This document shows, piece after piece, positions 37,345 through 48,964 of a stretch of 64,000 nucleotides of DNA. The translations under genes were made by a program, and so were the position numbers. Positions within the stretch are counted from its first letter, which is position 1. Each line of letters opens with the position of its first letter. Below the pieces are notes generated by a model. That model worked only from the letters and a program-made list of their open reading frames with translations, made no database searches and was not told the origin of the DNA. The DNA comes from Candidatus Bipolaricaulis anaerobius (GTDB lineage Bacteria > Bipolaricaulota > Bipolaricaulia > Bipolaricaulales > Bipolaricaulaceae): assembly GCF_900465355.1 (NCBI RefSeq), contig NZ_LS483254.1:496001-560000 (forward strand). Direction: 5' to 3'.

Positions 37345-40102
37345 GCCTCCCCGGCTGCGGGACCGACTGTTCGCGGCCCTCGCCACGGCCTCGACCCGTT
37401 GGCCGTGGCTCATCGTTGCCCTGTTCGTGGCCCTCGCGGCCATGTCCTACGTCTACGTCCGCGATTTTCGCATTCGCACGGACTACCTCGATCTCCTCCC
37501 CCAGCAGGATCCCCTTGTCGTCAAGTTCCAGTCCGTGGAAGAGGAGATCGCGAGCACGGATGTGATCGCGGTCCTCCTCACCCTCGTCTCCCCGCCGCCG
37601 GACATGGCCGAGCGCGAGCGGGCCCTCATCGCGGCCGCGGAGCGGGTGATCGGGGAGCTCGATCTGGGGCCGTCCTCGGATCTCATCTCCGCCTCGTACC
37701 GCGTTGGGGAAGGGATCGTTGTCCCCCCCGAGCTCCTCATCTTCCGAACCCTTTCTCCGGCTGAGCTCGAGCGGCTGCGGGAGATCGCCCGTGAGGTTCA
37801 ATCCCAGTTGCCGGCCCTTCCCCCGGCCCGATCGTTCGCGGAGATCCTGGCTACGGTCACCACCGCCGAGGCGACGGACCCCGCGGCGGTGCGGGCCGCG
37901 CTCAGCGAGCTCGTGGCCACCGGGCACGCCGCCCGGGATCTCCTGGAGGGGATCCTCGCGGGGCAAGAGCTGGTCGCGGAGGCCGCGACGATCGCCCGGG
38001 CCGTCAAGGACCGACCCGCCCCCCAGGAGAGAGGTGAGCCGATCCTGTCGCGGGACCGTAGCCGGCTGGTCCTCCAGATCTGGCCGTCCCGTCGGCCGAC
38101 GGAATCGCTTGAGTACAACCGGGCTGTCTCCGTCGCCGTGCAGGAGGCGGTCGCGCGTGCCCAGCTGGGGGACCTCGGGGTCGAGGCGGGGATCACCGGG
38201 GCCTACGCGATGACGGTGGAGGCGGAGGACACGATCCGCCAAGACATGAACCTCGTGACGATCATCTCCACGGCGGCGGTGTTCAGTTTGCTGTTTGCCA
38301 TCCTCCTCAAGCCGTCCCTGTGCCTGGCTGCCATCATCCCCATCACGCTCTCCGCCCTGTTCACCATGGCGTGGGCCAAGCTCGCGGTGGGGGGGTTCAA
38401 CCTCCTCACCGTGTTCCTGCCGGCGTTGGTCATCGGGCTGGGGGATGACTTCTGCATCCACATCCTCTCCCGGTACGTCGAGGAGCGGGCCCATGGGAAG
38501 GACGTGAAGGGGGCGCTTGCGATCGCCGTGCGCACGAAGGGGGGAGCGTGTTTCACGGCCGCGGCGACCATCGCCGGGGTATTCGGCTGTCTCCTCCTCT
38601 CCCATTCCCGCGCCCTGTGGGAGATGGGGGCGATCATGGCGGTGGGGATCCTGTTCCCGCTCGCCGGAGCCCTCCTCCTCACCCCGGCTCTGGTGGCGTT
38701 GACCGTGCGCGACCGCCGCCCCCCCCGGAAGCGGTCCCTGGGGTCCACGGCGCTCCTCCACTCCGCCTACCGCCGCTTCCTCCGCCTCCGGCCGGGCGTG
38801 GTCGCGGTCGGCCTGATCCTCACGGGATCCATCGTGTACCAGGCAACGCAGGTTCAGTTCAAGTTCGCGTCGAGCGATCTGGCCCCGGTCACCCCAGCGG
38901 TGACGGTGCTGTCCACCCTCAACCGTGAGTTTGCAAGCGAGGTCTGGCTCGGCGATTCGTTCCAGTTCTTCGTTGACCGGCCCGAGGATATCGCCCCGCT
39001 GGAGGAGGCGCTCGCCAGCCACCCCTTGGTCCAGGCCACGGTATCGGTGCGGGACCTCCTCCCCCAGGAGCTCCTCGGGGGCGAGATCTCGATCCTCAAC
39101 CTCCCCGTGGGCGAGGTGCGAAGCGGGGTGGAGGATCTCGGGGAGACGCTCGCCCGCTGGGATGCCACCCTCGGCGCGCTGCAGAACCTGATCGTTGACC
39201 TCGCCCAGCTGGAGTTCCTCGCCCTCCTCCAGGGGCGCCCGGCGTTGGCGGAGGCGCTTTCGGCGGGGAGCGATGATCTCATCGCGCTCCTGTGGGAGCT
39301 GGAGGGCGTGGATGCCCCGACCGAGCGGGCGCGACTCGAGGAGATCGCGGGGGATCTTGGGGCCCTCGAAGAGCTGGTGGCGAGGGTGACGGCCCTCCCC
39401 CCAGAGCCACAGCTCTTAGACCAGATCCTCGCCCTCCTCCCGGCGGAAGTGCGATCGCAGTATGGGACAAAAAACGGGCGGTACATCGTCGAGGCGAGGA
39501 TGGCGCCCACCCTCTACCAGGGCCGCAACCTCCAGGAGTTCCTCGACTGGGCGGATGGGCTCGGCGTGGAGCGCCTCGGGCTCCCGGAGGTCGGCGCCCG
39601 GCTCGAGGAGTACATGAAGCGGGACTTCCTCCTCTCCACTGTCCTCGCGGTGGTGATCATCTTCCTCCTCGTGTGGCACGACTTCCCGCGGCCCTCCGAG
39701 GCAGCCCTCGCTCTCGCCCCGTTGGCGATGGGCTATGTGTGGATGCTCGCCGGGATGACCCTCCTCGGGGTCCAGTTCAATTTCACCAACATCGCCATCT
39801 CCCCCCTCCTCATCGGGATTGGGATCGACAGCGCGGTGGTCCTCCTCCATCGGGTGGCCGAGGAACGCGCTGCGGGGGGGGATGCCGTGGCCCGTGCCGC
39901 GGCGACGACCGCCATCCCCATCGCGTTCAGCTCGCTGACGACGATGGCGACCTTCGCCGCGCTCCTCACCGCCCGCACCCCGGGGCTCCGCCTCCTCGGC
40001 ACCTCGGCCCTCCTCGGACTGGGGTTCACCCTCCTGTGGAGCCTGACGTTCCTCCCCGCTGCCGCCGCCCTGCTGGTTGAGAAAGAGGAACCGAAGGAAT
40101 AA
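37295..40102 (+). CDS. RND/MMPL-family transporter
   Basis: An inner-membrane protein of about 935 residues with two RND halves. Each half has an N-terminal membrane helix, a large extracytoplasmic domain and a block of five or six helices. VIGLGDDFCIHILSRYVEER and IGIGIDSAVVLLHRVAEERA are the paired motif-D-like segments with acidic residues in the membrane. It resembles HpnN/MMPL exporters of lipids or hopanoids. The start is uncertain: ATG 37295 overlaps nusA by 50 bases, and no ATG/GTG/TTG lies between it and the first helix. The long alpha-helical insert near 560-680 is unusual. Confidence 0.82.
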   Translation: MPSPSARRPGNAPKPAKPPRLRDRLFAALATASTRWPWLIVALFVALAAMSYVYVRDFRIRTDYLDLLPQQDPLVVKFQSVEEEIASTDVIAVLLTLVSPPPDMAERERALIAAAERVIGELDLGPSSDLISASYRVGEGIVVPPELLIFRTLSPAELERLREIAREVQSQLPALPPARSFAEILATVTTAEATDPAAVRAALSELVATGHAARDLLEGILAGQELVAEAATIARAVKDRPAPQERGEPILSRDRSRLVLQIWPSRRPTESLEYNRAVSVAVQEAVARAQLGDLGVEAGITGAYAMTVEAEDTIRQDMNLVTIISTAAVFSLLFAILLKPSLCLAAIIPITLSALFTMAWAKLAVGGFNLLTVFLPALVIGLGDDFCIHILSRYVEERAHGKDVKGALAIAVRTKGGACFTAAATIAGVFGCLLLSHSRALWEMGAIMAVGILFPLAGALLLTPALVALTVRDRRPPRKRSLGSTALLHSAYRRFLRLRPGVVAVGLILTGSIVYQATQVQFKFASSDLAPVTPAVTVLSTLNREFASEVWLGDSFQFFVDRPEDIAPLEEALASHPLVQATVSVRDLLPQELLGGEISILNLPVGEVRSGVEDLGETLARWDATLGALQNLIVDLAQLEFLALLQGRPALAEALSAGSDDLIALLWELEGVDAPTERARLEEIAGDLGALEELVARVTALPPEPQLLDQILALLPAEVRSQYGTKNGRYIVEARMAPTLYQGRNLQEFLDWADGLGVERLGLPEVGARLEEYMKRDFLLSTVLAVVIIFLLVWHDFPRPSEAALALAPLAMGYVWMLAGMTLLGVQFNFTNIAISPLLIGIGIDSAVVLLHRVAEERAAGGDAVARAAATTAIPIAFSSLTTMATFAALLTARTPGLRLLGTSALLGLGFTLLWSLTFLPAAAALLVEKEEPKE

Positions 40103-40130
40103 AGTGCTCTCTACCGAAGGAGAAGATCGT

Positions 40131-41750
40131 ATGGCCTGGATCGGTTGGCTGGGAGCTGTGGTGTGGGCCGTGCCGGCGTGGGCGCAAGCCCAGGCCGCGA
40201 AGGCGCCTGTCCAGCCGGGCGCGCCCTTCCCCTGGCTCTCCATTGGGATCGCCCTCGCCGCCCTTGCCGTCGGGGTAGCGCTCGGGCTCCTCTTCGCCCG
40301 CCTCCGCCACCGCCACGTGAACCGCCGGGCCGAGGTGATCCTGAGCGAGGCCCGCGGGGAAGCGGAACGGGTTCACCGGGAGCGACTCCTCCTCACCCAG
40401 CACGAGATCGAGGAGCTCAGGGAGCGAGAGGAAGAGCGCCTGCGCAAGAAGGAGGCCGAGCTCGCCCAGCTCGAGGAACGCCTCCGCCAGCGCGAGGACC
40501 GGATGGAGAAGAAGGTCCAGTACCTGGAGACGATCGAGGCCTCGATCCGCCAGGACGAGGCGGAGGTTGCCCACCTCCTCGAGACCGGCCGCCAGCTCCT
40601 CGCCGAGGAGCGGGCGCTTTTGGAGCGGCTGAGCGGGCTCACGGAGGAGGAGGCCAAAGAGTACCTTCTGAAGCTTGTGGAGGCGGAGTCGGAGCGGTAC
40701 TTCGCCCGCAAGATCAGCGAGGTGGAGCGGCGCACGACCCAGGAGGCGGAGCGCCGGGCTCGTCGCATCCTCGCCAATGCTGTGCAGCGCTACGCCCTCG
40801 ACTACGCGGAGGAGGCCACGGTCACCACCGTCCCCCTCCCCAGCGACGAGTACAAGGGACGCATCATCGGGCGGGACGGGCGCAACATCCGGGCGTTCGA
40901 GGCCCTGACAGGGATCGAGGTCCTCGTGGACGACACGCCGGAGGCGGTCGTCCTGTCCTCATTCCACCCCGTGCGGAGGGAAGTGGCCCGCATCGCCCTG
41001 GAGAAGCTCCTCGAGGACGGGCGGATCCACCCCGCCCGGATCGAGGAGACGGTGCGCAAGGCAAAGGACCGCGTGGAGGAGGCGATCCTCGAGGCGGGGG
41101 AGAAGGCCGCCTTTGAGGTGGGGATCGAACTCCCGAGCGACCTCATCCAGCTCCTGGGCCGCCTCCACTTCCGGACAAGCTACGGCCAGAACCAGCTCCA
41201 GCATGCGCTCGAGGTGAGCTTCCTTGCCCGGCTCCTTGCCGAGGAGATCGGGATCGACCCCAAGCCCGCCAAGCGGGCGGGGCTCCTCCACGACATCGGG
41301 AAAGCGGTGGACCACGACGTGGAAGGGCCGCACGCCCTCATCGGGGCCGATCTGGCCCGGCGGGCGGGGGAGCCATGGCCGATCGTGAACGCGATCGCTG
41401 CCCACCACGGCCAGGCGGAGCCGGCGACCGTGACCGCGGTCCTCGTCCAGGCCGCGGATACCCTGTCCGCGGCCCGCCCCGGGGCGCGCCAGGAGACCTA
41501 CGAACGGTACTGCCAGCGGCTGGAGGAGCTGGAGAAGATCGCGTCCGCCTATCCCCTGGTGAAGGAGGCCTACGCCATTCAGGCGGGGCGGGAGGTGCGG
41601 GTGATCGTGCGGCCGGAGAAGACGACGGATGACATGGCGGCGAAGCTTGCGTATGATATCGCGCGCCGGATTGAGGAGCAGGTGCAGTACCCCGGGGAGA
41701 TCAAGGTGACCGTCATCCGTCAGGCTCAATTTGTGGACACGGCCCGCTAA
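40131..41750 (+). CDS. rny: Ribonuclease Y
   Basis: Membrane-anchored endoribonuclease that starts mRNA decay, 539 residues. In order: an N-terminal hydrophobic segment that looks like a cleavable signal peptide (MAWIGWLGAVVWAVPAWAQA), a second membrane helix at about 33-56, a coiled coil at about 60-215, a KH domain (EYKGRIIGRDGRNIRAFEAL) and an HD domain (GLLHDIGKAVDHDVEGPHAL). The double N-terminal hydrophobic segment is odd; B. subtilis RNase Y has one. ATG 40131 follows AAGGAG. spoVS follows after 9 bases. Confidence 0.94.
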   Translation: MAWIGWLGAVVWAVPAWAQAQAAKAPVQPGAPFPWLSIGIALAALAVGVALGLLFARLRHRHVNRRAEVILSEARGEAERVHRERLLLTQHEIEELREREEERLRKKEAELAQLEERLRQREDRMEKKVQYLETIEASIRQDEAEVAHLLETGRQLLAEERALLERLSGLTEEEAKEYLLKLVEAESERYFARKISEVERRTTQEAERRARRILANAVQRYALDYAEEATVTTVPLPSDEYKGRIIGRDGRNIRAFEALTGIEVLVDDTPEAVVLSSFHPVRREVARIALEKLLEDGRIHPARIEETVRKAKDRVEEAILEAGEKAAFEVGIELPSDLIQLLGRLHFRTSYGQNQLQHALEVSFLARLLAEEIGIDPKPAKRAGLLHDIGKAVDHDVEGPHALIGADLARRAGEPWPIVNAIAAHHGQAEPATVTAVLVQAADTLSAARPGARQETYERYCQRLEELEKIASAYPLVKEAYAIQAGREVRVIVRPEKTTDDMAAKLAYDIARRIEEQVQYPGEIKVTVIRQAQFVDTAR

Positions 41751-42180: not shown

Positions 42181-44652
42181 ATGAACTTCTTCAAGCGACA
42201 TCAGAAGATCATCATCTGGCTGCTTGTGATCGGGTTCCTGGCGTCGATCGTCGTCGCCGGGGGACTGCGCTGGCTGAGCTCGCCGCCGGAAGGGAGCGCC
42301 GAGGAGACGATCCTCCTCGTGGACAGCAAGAAGGTGACCCGCGAGGAGTTCACACGGGTCTACGGGAACCTCATCGACTATTACACGCAGCTGTATGCGA
42401 TGTACGGCCTGGATTTTGAATCCATGTTCCAGGGGGCGGAGGGGGCGTTCCGGATGCTGCCGTACATGGCCCAGGCCGCAGAAGAGATCGTGCGCTCGGT
42501 CATCCTCGACCAGGCAGCGCGGGAGCTCAAGGTGACGATCGCCAAGGCCGAGCTGGACCAGGCGGTGCGCGCGCAGTACCAGACCGTGCTCACGCAGTAC
42601 GGGCTCACCGAGGAACAGCTCAAGGAGCTCCTCGAGTATCAGGGTTCGACGCTGGAGGCGTACAAGAAGGACCTCGCGACGAGCCAGGAGGCCCAGTTGC
42701 GCGAGGAGCGGGTGCGCCAGCTCGTGGTGGGCCCCATCGAGCCGACGGAGGCCGATCTCCTCGCTTACTACGAGGCGAACCAGGATCGGTACCAGACTGA
42801 ACCGGAGAGGATCCGGGTCGGCCACATCCTCGTCCGCGAGGCGAAGCTCGCCGATGAGCTCCTCGGGCAGGCCGCCGCTCCCGATGCGGACTTCGCGGCG
42901 CTGGCCCAGGCCCACTCCCTCGATGAGGCGACGAAGGAGACCGGAGAGACGGACTGGTTCTCCTACTCCTCGTCCCCGTTCTCGGACAAGGTCACCGACG
43001 CGATCTGGTCGGCGGAGGTGGGGCAGGTCAAGCTCGTGGACGACGACGAGGGGTTCCACATCGTGAAGCTCCTCGCGCGGCAAGAGGCGGTCGTCCCCCC
43101 GTTCGCCACGATCCGCGACACGGTGAAGTCGGATTACATCCGCGACGGGGAGACGAAGCGCTGGGATAGCTGGTACACCGCGCGCCGGGAACGGATCGAG
43201 GTGAAGGCCCTCGATCCGGTCCTCTCCGCCGCGGTGGCGTATGGATCCGACAAGGCCGCGGCCCTGGCTGAGCTTGAAGCCGCCCGCAGCGCTGGCACGT
43301 CCGACGATCCCTACCTCACCTACTACATCGGGCGCCTCCACGAGGAACTCCTCACGGAGGCAGCGGCGAAGAGGATCGAACTGGAGGGGAAGGAGGGGCG
43401 CACTGCGGCGGAGGAGGAGGAGCTTGCCCGCCTGCGGACGGAGGAGGCGCACCACAAGGAGCAGGCCATCGCTGCCTACCTTGCGTTCATCCAGACGGGG
43501 ATAGGCGACGAGGCGTTCTTCCAGCGCCTGCTCTCCCTCGCCCCGGAGAGCGCTGAGGCGCGGTACGCCCTCGCCGAGATGTACCGCCAGGCCGGGAAGT
43601 GGGTCGAAGCCGAGACGGAGTACCGGCAGGCGATCGCGCTGCGGCCGACGTTCGTGGAGGCCTACGTCGGCCAGGGGGACGTGCTGATGGCCCTCAACCT
43701 CTACCGCCCCGCGAGCGAGGCCTACCGCCACGCGCTCGACCTCCAGCCGGGCAATGTCACGCTCAGCCTGAAGCTCGCCACGGCGTACGTGAAGGACAAC
43801 CAACCCTCCCTCGCCGAGCCCTTGCTTCAGGACGTGCTTTCCCGCGAGCCGAACAACGCCACCGCCCTCACCCTGGCCGGGGATCTCCTCCTCGCCCAGG
43901 GGGACACGGCGGGGGCGATCGCCCGCTACGATGCGGCGTACAAGCGGGGTCTGACCGCGGATGCCCTCCTCAAGCTGGCGGGGGCGTACCTCGCCGCGGG
44001 GCAGACCGGGGAGGCGAAGAAGAGGTACGAGGACGCGATCCGCCTTTTTCCGTACCGTCCGGAGGGGTACCTCGGCCTGGGCGACGTGCACCTCGAGCTG
44101 GGGGAGCAGGGCAAGGCCCTCGACTCCTACCGCCAGGCCCTCCAACGCGCGGCCGCGGTCTCGCTCAAGGAGACGATCGCCCGCAAGATCGTGGACCTCG
44201 ACCCCAGTGACCTCCGCACCCGCTTCCTCCTCGCCGGGTACTTCCGCGACCAGTACAAGTACGATGGGGCGATCCCCCAGTACGAAGCGATCCTTAACCT
44301 CTCCCCCGGGAACCTCGATGCCCTGATCGGGCTGGGGGACTGCTACCTCGCCAAGGTCCAGTACGATCGGGCGCTCGATTACTACCGCCAGGCGCTCGAC
44401 GTGGCGACGACGCCCCAGCAGAAGCTCTCCATCTACACCCAGATGGTGGCGGTCGAGGAGGGGAGGGCAGGAGGCACGTTGGGACCGACGGGGCTTGAGT
44501 TCCTGTGGCAGCGGGCCCAGCTCTACGCCGAGCTCGGTCGCTCCGAGGAAGCGGTGGCGGATCTAAAGCGCATCCAGACGGCCGATCCGTCCTTCCGGTC
44601 GGCCGAAGTGGCCGCCCTCCTCACGAAGCTCACCCTCCCCCAGCCGCAATGA
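42181..44652 (+). CDS. PpiD-like peptidyl-prolyl isomerase with C-terminal TPR array
   Basis: An 823-residue membrane-anchored foldase. Residues about 10-33 form a single membrane helix. SurA-N-type helices follow (about 45-200), then a parvulin PPIase domain (about 215-305, RVGHILVREAKLA to EGFHIVKLLARQ). From about 430 to 815 there are eight or more TPR units (e.g. AEARYALAEMYRQAGKWVEA). It would assist folding of exported proteins. A PPIase joined to a long TPR scaffold in one chain is unusual. A GATAAG box 5 bases before the ATG may be its -10. Confidence 0.83.
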   Translation: MNFFKRHQKIIIWLLVIGFLASIVVAGGLRWLSSPPEGSAEETILLVDSKKVTREEFTRVYGNLIDYYTQLYAMYGLDFESMFQGAEGAFRMLPYMAQAAEEIVRSVILDQAARELKVTIAKAELDQAVRAQYQTVLTQYGLTEEQLKELLEYQGSTLEAYKKDLATSQEAQLREERVRQLVVGPIEPTEADLLAYYEANQDRYQTEPERIRVGHILVREAKLADELLGQAAAPDADFAALAQAHSLDEATKETGETDWFSYSSSPFSDKVTDAIWSAEVGQVKLVDDDEGFHIVKLLARQEAVVPPFATIRDTVKSDYIRDGETKRWDSWYTARRERIEVKALDPVLSAAVAYGSDKAAALAELEAARSAGTSDDPYLTYYIGRLHEELLTEAAAKRIELEGKEGRTAAEEEELARLRTEEAHHKEQAIAAYLAFIQTGIGDEAFFQRLLSLAPESAEARYALAEMYRQAGKWVEAETEYRQAIALRPTFVEAYVGQGDVLMALNLYRPASEAYRHALDLQPGNVTLSLKLATAYVKDNQPSLAEPLLQDVLSREPNNATALTLAGDLLLAQGDTAGAIARYDAAYKRGLTADALLKLAGAYLAAGQTGEAKKRYEDAIRLFPYRPEGYLGLGDVHLELGEQGKALDSYRQALQRAAAVSLKETIARKIVDLDPSDLRTRFLLAGYFRDQYKYDGAIPQYEAILNLSPGNLDALIGLGDCYLAKVQYDRALDYYRQALDVATTPQQKLSIYTQMVAVEEGRAGGTLGPTGLEFLWQRAQLYAELGRSEEAVADLKRIQTADPSFRSAEVAALLTKLTLPQPQ

Positions 44653-45278: not shown

Positions 45279-45543
45279 CCGGTTCACGGCGCTGCAGGCC
45301 CTTCCGCGGCCGTCGGACGCGGTCACGATGTGGGTGGAGACCGATCCAGACGCGATCCACTTCCTGGACGCGGTGTTCGCCGCCGGACCGGGGGTGGGCA
45401 ACGTGCGCCGCGAGTACCGTGATGAGGGCCCCCGACGGATGTTCAAGCTGTTCGTCGCCCCCGGGGCAGAGGACGAGGCGATGCGCACCCTCCGCGCGGC
45501 GGCGCGGTTCGTCCGCGTGGGGGAGGTCCGGATCGAACGGTGA
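45271..45543 (+). CDS. Small DUF4911-like protein
   Basis: A 90-residue protein with alternating strands and helices: VTMWVETDPDAIHFLDAVFA then NVRREYRD and RMFKLFVAPGAEDEAMRTL. It resembles DUF4911, a ferredoxin-like small domain often in translation-gene clusters, but the assignment is by pattern only. It overlaps mazG by 8 bases and yqeG by 4, so all three are co-translated. No function is known. Confidence 0.6.
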   Translation: MGSRFTALQALPRPSDAVTMWVETDPDAIHFLDAVFAAGPGVGNVRREYRDEGPRRMFKLFVAPGAEDEAMRTLRAAARFVRVGEVRIER

Positions 45544-46058
45544 GGTGGGCACATGCGGACCACGTGGCACGCTCGGTCCACGAGGTGGACTACAACCGCC
45601 TTCTCCGTGACGGAATCCAGGCCATCCTCTACGACCTCGAGAACACCCTCTGCCGGTGGCAGGAGTGGGAGCTCGACGAGCGGACGCGGGCCCTCCTCCA
45701 CCGGTTGGGCGAGCAGGGGGTCGCGCTCGCCGTGCTCACGAATGCCGCCCTCCCCCCCGGCCATCCCCTCGTCCGGGAGCTGGAGGGAGGGGGGGTGGTC
45801 GTGGTCACGAGGGCGCGCAAGCCGCTCCGTCGCGGGTTCCAAACCGCCCTGTGTCGCTTGGGGGTCGACCCGGGGCGGGCGGCAATGGTGGGCGATCAGG
45901 TGCTGACGGACATCCTCGGTGGGAAGCGGGCGGGGTTGGTCACCGTCCTTGTGGACCCGCTCGGCCCTGATGAATCGCGGCTGACGAAGATCAACCGTCG
46001 ACTGGAACGGCTCCTCGGCCGCCGGTCCCCCGCGGGGGGGGCATCCGCCGCCCCATGA
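45540..46058 (+). CDS. yqeG: YqeG-family HAD IIIA phosphatase-like protein
   Basis: A 172-residue protein similar to B. subtilis YqeG along its length: HVARSVHEVDYNRLLRDGI, LTNAAL, RARKPLRRGF and VGDQVLTDILGGKRAGLVTV. The first motif is YDLENTL (D32, E34) where DxD is standard, so the acid/base aspartate is replaced by glutamate. Activity may be reduced or changed. GTG start within GTGA overlap; its stop overlaps rnc. Confidence 0.85.
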   Translation: MRWAHADHVARSVHEVDYNRLLRDGIQAILYDLENTLCRWQEWELDERTRALLHRLGEQGVALAVLTNAALPPGHPLVRELEGGGVVVVTRARKPLRRGFQTALCRLGVDPGRAAMVGDQVLTDILGGKRAGLVTVLVDPLGPDESRLTKINRRLERLLGRRSPAGGASAAP

Positions 46059-46747
46059 CCCGCCCCCCGCCGCTTCTCGCCCTCCTCGGCCGGCTGGGGC
46101 TGGACCTGCCGGACGACGTCCTGCGCACTGCGGTGACCCACGATTCGTACGCCAACGAGCACGGGGGGGAGAGCAACGAACGCCTGGAGTTCCTCGGCGA
46201 CGCGGTCCTCGACCTCGCCGTGGCCGATTTCCTGTTCCACCTCTTCCCCGAGCGGGACGAGGGGGAGCTCTCCAAGCTGCGGGCGGTCGTAGTGTCCCGG
46301 CCGGTGCTGGCGGAGGTTGCGGCGGGCCTGGGGCTGGGCGAACTCCTCCTCCTCGGGAGGGGGGCGGAGGAGGGCGGGGCGCGGGACCGGCCTTCGGTCC
46401 TCGCCGCGGCGCTGGAAGCGGTGGTCGGGGCAGCGTTCCTCCACCATGGCTACCCCGCGGCGCGGGCCCTCGCGGAGGCTCTCCTCGGCCCGCGGATCGC
46501 CGCCCACGGGGCGGAGGGAACCCCCGACTACAAGTCGCTCCTTCAGGAACTGGGTCAGGCCCGGTTCGGGGAGCTCCCCCGCTACGAGGTCGTCGCCACC
46601 GAGGGGCCGGAGCACAAGAAGGTGTTCGCGGTGCGGGCCTCCCTCCCGGCGGGGGAGGCCGTCGGCCGCGGCCGGTCGAAGAAGGAGGCCGAACAGGCAG
46701 CGGCGAAACGACTCTACGTCGGGCTGACCTCCCCGGGAACGGACTGA
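46055..46747 (+). CDS. rnc: Ribonuclease III
   Basis: A 230-residue double-strand-specific RNase with the catalytic domain (about 1-145) and a C-terminal dsRNA-binding domain (about 155-225, YKSLLQELGQ to SKKEAEQAAAKRL). The signature NERLEFLGDAVL supplies E45 and D49, and E121 is present in AALEAVVGAAF. The metal-binding aspartate equivalent to E. coli Asp114 is an alanine (A118). The enzyme may be catalytically weakened. It is co-translated with yqeG. Confidence 0.92.
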   Translation: MTRPPPLLALLGRLGLDLPDDVLRTAVTHDSYANEHGGESNERLEFLGDAVLDLAVADFLFHLFPERDEGELSKLRAVVVSRPVLAEVAAGLGLGELLLLGRGAEEGGARDRPSVLAAALEAVVGAAFLHHGYPAARALAEALLGPRIAAHGAEGTPDYKSLLQELGQARFGELPRYEVVATEGPEHKKVFAVRASLPAGEAVGRGRSKKEAEQAAAKRLYVGLTSPGTD

Positions 46748-46787: not shown

Positions 46788-46810
46788 CGAACGGAGTGAA
46801 GGAGGCGACC

Positions 46811-48964
46811 ATGCGCAAGTGTCTAGCGTTGGCGGTCGTGCTGATCCTGGGCGTGGCTGCGGTCGGGCAGATCGAGGAGGTCCGCGACCTCGGGTACGGG
46901 AACAAGCCGTTCAACCCCACCGACACGGGCCTCGTGATGCGGGCCCTGCTGCGGGATAACGACGCAGGGAATCTTGATCCAGTCTACTTTACAAGGCTAG
47001 CCGTCGCGAACGTGGGGACGGCGGCGGCGGAGTTCGAATGGGTGGAGCTGCGGATCGAGATCGCTGGGCAGAAGAGGGTCCTCGCCCGCTCGACGGGGTT
47101 CCCGATCGCGGAGGTCCTCCTCCCCCGTCCCGTCGAGGAGCGGATGCTCCCCGATGACGGGGAGGCGTGGATCGAGGTCTGGGTCAAGGTGACGGAGGAC
47201 ATCGTCCACGGCCACACCGTCCAGCCCCAGATCCGGTTGTGGTGGTCGGAGGGCGATGCGGGGGGGACGATCGAGCTCACCGACGGCGTCGCCGACACGT
47301 TTGTGGTGGACGAGAGCTTCGGTGCTCAAGGCCTTCCCGGCCCCGAGGGTGGGGTCCTCAACCCGGGCGATGTGTTCCTCGTCGCCGAGGCCGAGGTGTG
47401 GGATACCCCCGACGTCAACGCACACCAGATGTACGTCGTTTCGGTGCGCGTGGATGGTCCGCGGGAGCTTATCTGGACCGTGGACATCAACAACGGGGTC
47501 ACCCGGATCGAGGTTCCGGCGGGGGTGGAGGTCCAGCTCCCGGAGCCGGCGTTCGTCGCCTACGACACCTACGATGAAGTGCGGCCAGGGCCGGTCCGGC
47601 TGTGGGTGACCGTGCCGCCGACGTTCCTCCCCGTGGAGCCGGTGCGGGTCGCCCCGAGCTGGGCGGTCACCGTGCGCGAGGGGGCCCAGGGCCCTCAGGC
47701 AGGGTCGTTCGCGTTCTCCGATCCCCTCCCGGATACGGTGGTGGCCGCCGGGCTGGAGTCGTTGACCGTGAGCGTGCCCGATGCGGGGCGCGTGCTCACC
47801 GTTGTCCCGGCCACCCTCGCTTACTCGACCCTCACCCTCACCGACGCCGACCGGAACCAGACGCCCATCCGGCTCGATCAGCTTGAACTCGGGGCTCGGG
47901 GGACGGTCTCCTCCCAGATCACCGCGCTCGAGCTCTACGACACAGGGGGGAGGTTCCTCGGCTTCACGGATGGGATCAAGCCTCTGCCCCTTTTCACGCC
48001 GGCGGGGAAGCCGATCCTCCTCTCGGATGACGGTTCGTTCTCGCTCGTCACGACGCTCTCCCTGGGCGGGAAGATGCCACTGGGGGGGAGCCTCCTCCTT
48101 GCCCACCGGGTGAAGGTTGAGGAGGCCCTGCCGTACGACTGGCTGTACAACTCCGCTGCGCTGACGAAGTTCGCCGGCGTGCAGGAGGTCGTGCCGGCGA
48201 AGGCGATCTTCTTTGGGCAGCCCAAGATCCAGCTCGCCGCTGTCGGATCGACGGTCGAGATCACGACCGACGGGGAGACGGTGGGCGTGTTCCAGGGCGT
48301 GCTCAGGTACACCCCGCGGGAGCCCCTCTCTCTGGAGGAGGTGTCCCTGCAGCTCATCGCCGAGCCCCCCTACCGGATCACCCAAGAATCGCTCGACCGG
48401 GAGAAGGGTGAACTCACGTTCCGGGTTGAGGCAGCGCGGGCCCAAGCGCGGGCGGGGAAGCTCGTCACGGTCCAGCTGGTCGTGGGCCGCGTCGCGGATC
48501 CAGCGGTGGAGGTGGCGGTTGAGCTCACGTCTGTGAAGCTCATCGACTGGGCGGGGATCGAGCTCCCGTTCACCTTGAGCCCGGGGAAGGCCACGATCAG
48601 CCTCACCGCCGTCACCCTCGGCCTGGAACAGGTGGAGGGCGCGCTCCGCATCACCGCGGACAGCGCGGTCATCGGGACCCTTGGGGGGGCCTTCACCTAC
48701 GAAGCTGGGCAGCCGCTCTCGTTCACCCGTGTCGCCTCCCCTGAACCGTACGCAGTGGCGGCGTTCGATCCCCAGGCCGGGGTTGTCTCGTTCCGGACCG
48801 CGCTCATCCCGGGGAACGCCCCCGCGTCAGGGGAGATCCTCGTGGCGGCGTTCGCGGCGGGGGGGAAGGTAGCGGTGAAGCTCGAGATCGCTGAGCTCCT
48901 CGATGCCCAGGGGAAGCCGTACCCGTTCGCTCTGCCCGTGGATGCGGTGGAGGTGGGCCCGTAG
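46811..48964 (+). CDS. Large secreted beta-rich protein with cohesin-like repeats
   Basis: A 717-residue exported protein with a signal peptide ending near AAVGQ at residue 20. The body is almost all predicted beta-strand. The C-terminal third contains two similar blocks of about 130 residues: one ending LTSVKLIDWAGIELPFTLSP and one ending LEIAELLDAQGKPYPFALPV. This pattern of strands resembles cohesin or other Ig-like carbohydrate-associated modules, but no dockerin is seen here. The N-terminal part has no recognised domain. ATG follows GGAGG. It is followed by the tRNA-Glu gene. Confidence 0.65.
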   Translation: MRKCLALAVVLILGVAAVGQIEEVRDLGYGNKPFNPTDTGLVMRALLRDNDAGNLDPVYFTRLAVANVGTAAAEFEWVELRIEIAGQKRVLARSTGFPIAEVLLPRPVEERMLPDDGEAWIEVWVKVTEDIVHGHTVQPQIRLWWSEGDAGGTIELTDGVADTFVVDESFGAQGLPGPEGGVLNPGDVFLVAEAEVWDTPDVNAHQMYVVSVRVDGPRELIWTVDINNGVTRIEVPAGVEVQLPEPAFVAYDTYDEVRPGPVRLWVTVPPTFLPVEPVRVAPSWAVTVREGAQGPQAGSFAFSDPLPDTVVAAGLESLTVSVPDAGRVLTVVPATLAYSTLTLTDADRNQTPIRLDQLELGARGTVSSQITALELYDTGGRFLGFTDGIKPLPLFTPAGKPILLSDDGSFSLVTTLSLGGKMPLGGSLLLAHRVKVEEALPYDWLYNSAALTKFAGVQEVVPAKAIFFGQPKIQLAAVGSTVEITTDGETVGVFQGVLRYTPREPLSLEEVSLQLIAEPPYRITQESLDREKGELTFRVEAARAQARAGKLVTVQLVVGRVADPAVEVAVELTSVKLIDWAGIELPFTLSPGKATISLTAVTLGLEQVEGALRITADSAVIGTLGGAFTYEAGQPLSFTRVASPEPYAVAAFDPQAGVVSFRTALIPGNAPASGEILVAAFAAGGKVAVKLEIAELLDAQGKPYPFALPVDAVEVGP

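Follow-up and report, generated by a model that had tools for sequence, protein, structure and literature searches.

Asp114 (D114, E. coli numbering) is routinely listed among the four essential, highly conserved acidic residues of RNase III. The RNase III fold is also found in plant RNC1 and in mitoribosomal mL44, where the core acids have been lost. The RNase III domain (RIIID) of RNC1 is degenerate, and the protein is reported to lack catalytic activity (PMC8708148). E41, D45, and E117 hold Mg2+ in the post-cleavage complex of the E. coli enzyme, where D114 is reported to be the sole one of the four catalytic side chains without direct Mg2+ coordination (PMC9291653). The corresponding Asp of Entamoeba RNase III ligates the metal directly in the metal-bound, RNA-free enzyme, and the RIIIDa of some class III (Drosha-type) enzymes carries a D to N change at the D114 equivalent (PMC5357909). 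Substitutions in the E. coli enzyme have graded effects: D114A shows weak activity when Mg2+ is in excess and binds little dsRNA (PMC8708148 Table 1), E100A is likewise reported as weak and low in dsRNA binding (PMC8708148), and E117K, E117A, and E117Q have no activity, with E117-changed enzymes binding dsRNA without cutting it (PMC8708148 Table 1).

The RNase III described here is encoded by Candidatus Bipolaricaulis anaerobius, in a 64,000-nucleotide stretch of DNA that was analysed as a whole and that we refer to as the window. A first-pass annotation of the window read the protein as an RNase III with alanine in place of D114, and proposed that it may be a dsRNA-binding regulator or a weak nuclease.

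A single RNase III with alanine at two conserved acidic sites

The window rnc gene (Table 1) encodes a full-length RNase III that scores 220.3 bits against TIGR02191, where the cut-off is 166.25, and that matches PF14622, PF00636, and PF00035, all above cut-off. The AlphaFold2 model has a mean pLDDT of 90, and its nuclease domain lies within 1.5 Å rmsd of M. tuberculosis RNase III (2a11). Alignment to E. coli RNase III agreed with the first-pass reading of the active site, in that the D114 place is taken by Ala118 and the equivalents of E41, D45, and E117 are retained (E45, D49, and E121); E38 and E65 are retained as well. A second replacement, Ala104 for E100, had been missed.

With a RIIID followed by one dsRBD, the ERLEFLGD motif with E41 and D45, a retained E117, and substrate stems flanking 16S and 23S in its own genome, the protein has these features of a class I enzyme but lacks the fourth catalytic acid, D114, which is Ala118. 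Cleavage of dsRNA that depends on divalent metal and leaves 2-nt 3' overhangs, a further mark of the class, is predicted for it. The domain pair, the NERLEFLGD box, the five acids E38, E41, D45, E65, and E117, and the fold are common to the window protein and to E. coli Rnc and the RNase IIIs of A. aeolicus, M. tuberculosis, and C. jejuni, from which it differs by having Ala for D114 and Ala for E100. It is not a Mini-III, which would be a RIIID without a dsRBD. The class III RIIIDa domains are unlike the window protein in being eukaryotic, with two RIIIDs per chain and an extra conserved Asn and Lys. RNC1 and mL44 have the RNase III fold in common with it, and mL44 gives a weak Pfam match to the window protein; however, unlike either of these, the window family holds E41, D45, and E117 invariant in 36 of 36 members and thus lacks the mark of a dead homologue, which is loss of these core ligands.

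The host genome (1,324,338 bases, one contig) encodes one RNase III domain protein, and a search of it for a second rnc or a Mini-III returned neither. Across the family, a RIIID gene is present in 37 of 40 genomes, including all 17 of the high-quality ones, and none of the 40 has a Mini-III or a second RIIID gene above the family cut-off.

Table 1. Features at the rnc locus, in window coordinates
Feature	Position	Strand	Remarks
RNase Y (context gene outside the feature)	40047..41750 (stop-to-stop ORF; first ATG 40131)	+	RNase_Y_N, KH, and HD domains
HAD-superfamily phosphatase ORF	45540..46058	+	Overlaps the rnc start by 4 bases (ATGA)
rnc, RNase III, 230 aa	46055..46747	+	RIIID + dsRBD; sole RIIID protein of the genome
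Signature box NERLEFLGD, residues 41-49	46175..46201	+	E42, E45, D49 = E. coli E38, E41, D45
Glu69	46259..46261	+	E. coli E65, retained
Ala104 (GCG)	46364..46366	+	E. coli Glu100 place; second lost conserved acid
Ala118 (GCG)	46406..46408	+	E. coli Asp114 place, by alignment to E. coli RNase III
Glu121	46415..46417	+	E. coli E117, retained
dsRBD, residues 159-219	46529..46711	+	PF00035, E 1.5e-11

Site 114 in the family and across bacteria

Within the family, the D114 column contains Ala in 23 and Ser in 13 of the 36 readable sequences, each from a separate genome, while the remainder of the class (32 sequences) has Asn in 17 and Asp in 15. The serine codons are of the form TCN, a single step from alanine's GCN. 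In the tree the family forms a supported clade (100/95), with loss of Glu100, which extends throughout the genus, nested once within it; Asn at site 114 arose at least twice among the family's relatives. Together these sequences indicate that the loss of Asp114 is an old change, fixed across the family.

The same site varies well beyond this lineage. Among 80 named bacterial RNase IIIs, which are the best 80 of 586 by similarity to the window protein and not a random draw of bacteria, 17 have a residue other than Asp (D 63, N 10, G 3, C 2, A 1, S 1). E65, E100, and E117 are each present in all 80, as are E41 and D45, but one search pattern contained both of these last residues. In 90 Chloroflexota RNase IIIs (L227-L286 and L197-L226), likewise not a random draw, 76 are non-Asp (S 23, D 14, R 14, A 13, N 12, C 7, G 6, E 1), and E41, D45, E65, and E117 are found in 90 of 90. 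The arginine in 14 of these proteins (for example L227, NLARVLEALIAAIYL) is a charge reversal inside the catalytic cluster. The enzymes of Chloroflexota, Helicobacter/Sulfurovum, and Paceibacteria resemble the window protein in lacking D114 and retaining the other catalytic acids, and differ in having Ser, Arg, Ala, Asn, Cys, or Gly there and in being independent losses. Phage RNase III homologues are distant. By parsimony, 238 sequences need about 17 switches between Asp and non-Asp. Glu100 is lost in 39 of the 238, in about 8 events, and D114 is missing too in 38 of these 39 (Fisher p = 3e-8, uncorrected for relatedness).

Because it is absent from so many of the named bacteria and Chloroflexota, D114 is not a defining feature of bacterial RNase III. 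The premise behind the first-pass annotation, which makes Asp114 a metal ligand that the enzyme cannot lack, is therefore too strong, since roughly one-fifth of a broad bacterial sample and most of the sampled Chloroflexota do without it, and since D114 makes no direct contact with Mg2+ in the reported E. coli complex (PMC9291653).

Conservation of the remaining acids

The RIIID of the window protein has 22 acidic positions, of which 17 vary in the family. The five that are invariant are exactly E38, E41, D45, E65, and E117, a set that would be drawn at random from the 22 with a chance of 1 in 26,334, and E41, D45, and E117 hold over 36 sequences down to ~55% identity. Pairwise dN/dS values for rnc are 0.15-0.33, indicating that the gene is under purifying selection. 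A search of the family nuclease domains for a replacement acid found no invariant acidic position beyond the five known ones. Residue 58, which is Asp or Glu across the family, was considered as a substitute for D114 and rejected, as 14 of 32 class members also have Glu there and the phase of the helix should turn the residue away from D49.

rRNA genes and candidate substrates

The 16S gene (1155271-1156837, minus strand) and the 23S-5S genes (435818-438854, plus strand, with 5S just downstream) are single copy, lie outside the window, and are ~0.6-0.7 Mb apart in the host genome, that is, unlinked. Using 100-nt flanks, the 16S leader and trailer pair at -72.7 kcal/mol (shuffles -52.1 +/- 5.2) and those of 23S at -83.1 kcal/mol (shuffles -55.8 +/- 5.3), while crossed 16S/23S flank pairs are no better than shuffles. 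The 16S stem recurs across family members with usable flanks, with z from -1.5 to -4.4. For 23S, the 18-bp core stem has all 18 positions paired in 13 of the 13 family genomes on which these statistics are based, since alignment could not place the 23S start in several relatives further away. At three positions the Watson-Crick pair takes two different forms, which are compensatory changes, and other positions have G-U variants. Closed by an artificial GAAA loop, the 23S stem folds into a hairpin at -41 kcal/mol (z = -10.5). Leader-trailer stems around 16S and 23S are the type of site that RNase III cuts, and in H. pylori unlinked 16S and 23S-5S precursors are matured by RNase III (PMC8708148).

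Probable activity of the enzyme

We consider it likely, with good confidence, that the window protein is a catalytically competent RNase III in which Asp114 has been permanently replaced by a small neutral residue. A working enzyme is the reading we favor because the loss is fixed in the family and recurs in other phyla, and because the other acids and the rRNA targets have been kept. Taking the E. coli and Entamoeba literature on D114 together, we propose that the enzyme is active, with a metal core of three acids and a shifted metal dependence. In our model, the dimer would use its RIIID valley and dsRBDs to bind dsRNA, and we infer from the residue pattern, the selection on it, the single gene copy, and the conserved stems that cleavage would employ metals bound at E45, D49, and E121 (equivalent to E41, D45, and E117 of E. 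coli). Its main substrates would be the leader-trailer stems of the 16S and 23S-5S precursors, which are transcribed separately. The Mg2+ dependence of the enzyme is probably altered: loss of D114 would most likely lower the affinity for Mg2+ or shift the Mg2+/Mn2+ optimum without abolishing cleavage. The published findings on the E. coli and Entamoeba enzymes together suggest that D114 helps metal loading or ground-state RNA binding, and that its loss may be tolerable once the rest of the site adapts. Three points weigh against an active enzyme. In E. coli RNase III, D114A and E100A are each reported to leave a weak enzyme that binds little dsRNA, and both changes are present in the window protein; the Entamoeba structure uses the equivalent Asp as a direct ligand (PMC5357909); and a different nuclease could in principle process the rRNA stems. 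A weak nuclease, the other alternative offered by the first-pass annotation, is possible by analogy with the residual activity of E. coli D114A in excess Mg2+ (PMC8708148).

The loss of two conserved acids, the ability of E117-changed E. coli enzymes to bind dsRNA without cutting (PMC8708148 Table 1), and the existence of degenerate RIIIDs such as that of RNC1 would all fit a catalytically dead RNase III, retained as a dsRNA-binding regulator or rRNA chaperone. We regard such a protein as unlikely, however, as invariant metal ligands are not expected of a protein retained solely for dsRNA binding. E41, D45, and E117 are unchanged across the family while most other acidic positions vary, the same acid pattern is present in 90 Chloroflexota, and the processing stems are conserved. 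The regulatory role suggested in the first-pass annotation thus finds no support: no acidic position of the nuclease domain is invariant apart from the five other conserved acids, purifying selection acts on the gene, and stems of the RNase III type are maintained around 16S and 23S.

Quite improbable is a weak and degenerating nuclease, tolerated since unlinked rRNA needs no RNase III to separate 16S from 23S. The distance between the rRNA genes in the host genome is in keeping with this, as are the apparently separate 16S and 23S of relatives G007, G009, and G026 and the unlinked rRNA genes of 27 of 38 Chloroflexota genomes (PMC7761764). However, unlinking looks class-wide, with the Asp-bearing relatives G058 and G075 also appearing unlinked, in a survey that looked for 23S in 100 relatives with a sarcin-ricin-loop pattern, which misses diverged 23S. 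Moreover, rRNA looks linked in Desulfobacterota (Gly), WOR-1 (Asn), and a Helicobacter (Asn) that lack Asp, and the stems, like the other acids, have been preserved and show no decay. With Asp-bearing relatives that appear unlinked and non-Asp bacteria that look linked, unlinking is not a clean cause of D114 loss either; the two co-occur here and often in Chloroflexota (PMC7761764), which we take as a correlation.

Finally, a sequencing or assembly error or a misalignment at Ala118 is already refuted, as nothing was found in its favor, the 36 readable family orthologues from separate genomes all have Ala or Ser and none the Asp that would have betrayed an error, and the site is ungapped and anchored by an invariant Glu three residues downstream.

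Beyond a competent enzyme in this one family, we tentatively raise the possibility, which we put at somewhat below even, of a second, naturally D114-free active-site form of bacterial RNase III. This form would have arisen repeatedly, with a metal core of E41, D45, and E117, with E100 lost almost solely after D114, with Arg114 in some Chloroflexota perhaps standing in for the metal-linked role, and with the enzyme fully functional. If so, the four-acid picture would fail for much of bacterial diversity. If D114-less enzymes work normally in whole lineages, D114 would be supportive, through metal recruitment or ground-state binding, and would stand outside the minimal catalytic core; the D114A, D114S, D114N, and D114R experiments would already have been run by nature in many backgrounds, and annotation rules that label such enzymes inactive would be wrong.

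Genes around rnc

The HAD-superfamily phosphatase ORF overlaps the start of rnc (Table 1), and the two are likely co-transcribed and translationally coupled. Directly downstream of rnc, at 46796-48964, is a 722-aa ORF with a signal-peptide-like start and no Pfam match. The first-pass annotation placed RNase Y in the same cell, and its domains confirm this. Adjoining RNase Y, window positions 42181-44652 encode an 823-aa protein whose single chain carries a SurA-like N-terminus, a PPIC-type rotamase, and a long array of TPRs.
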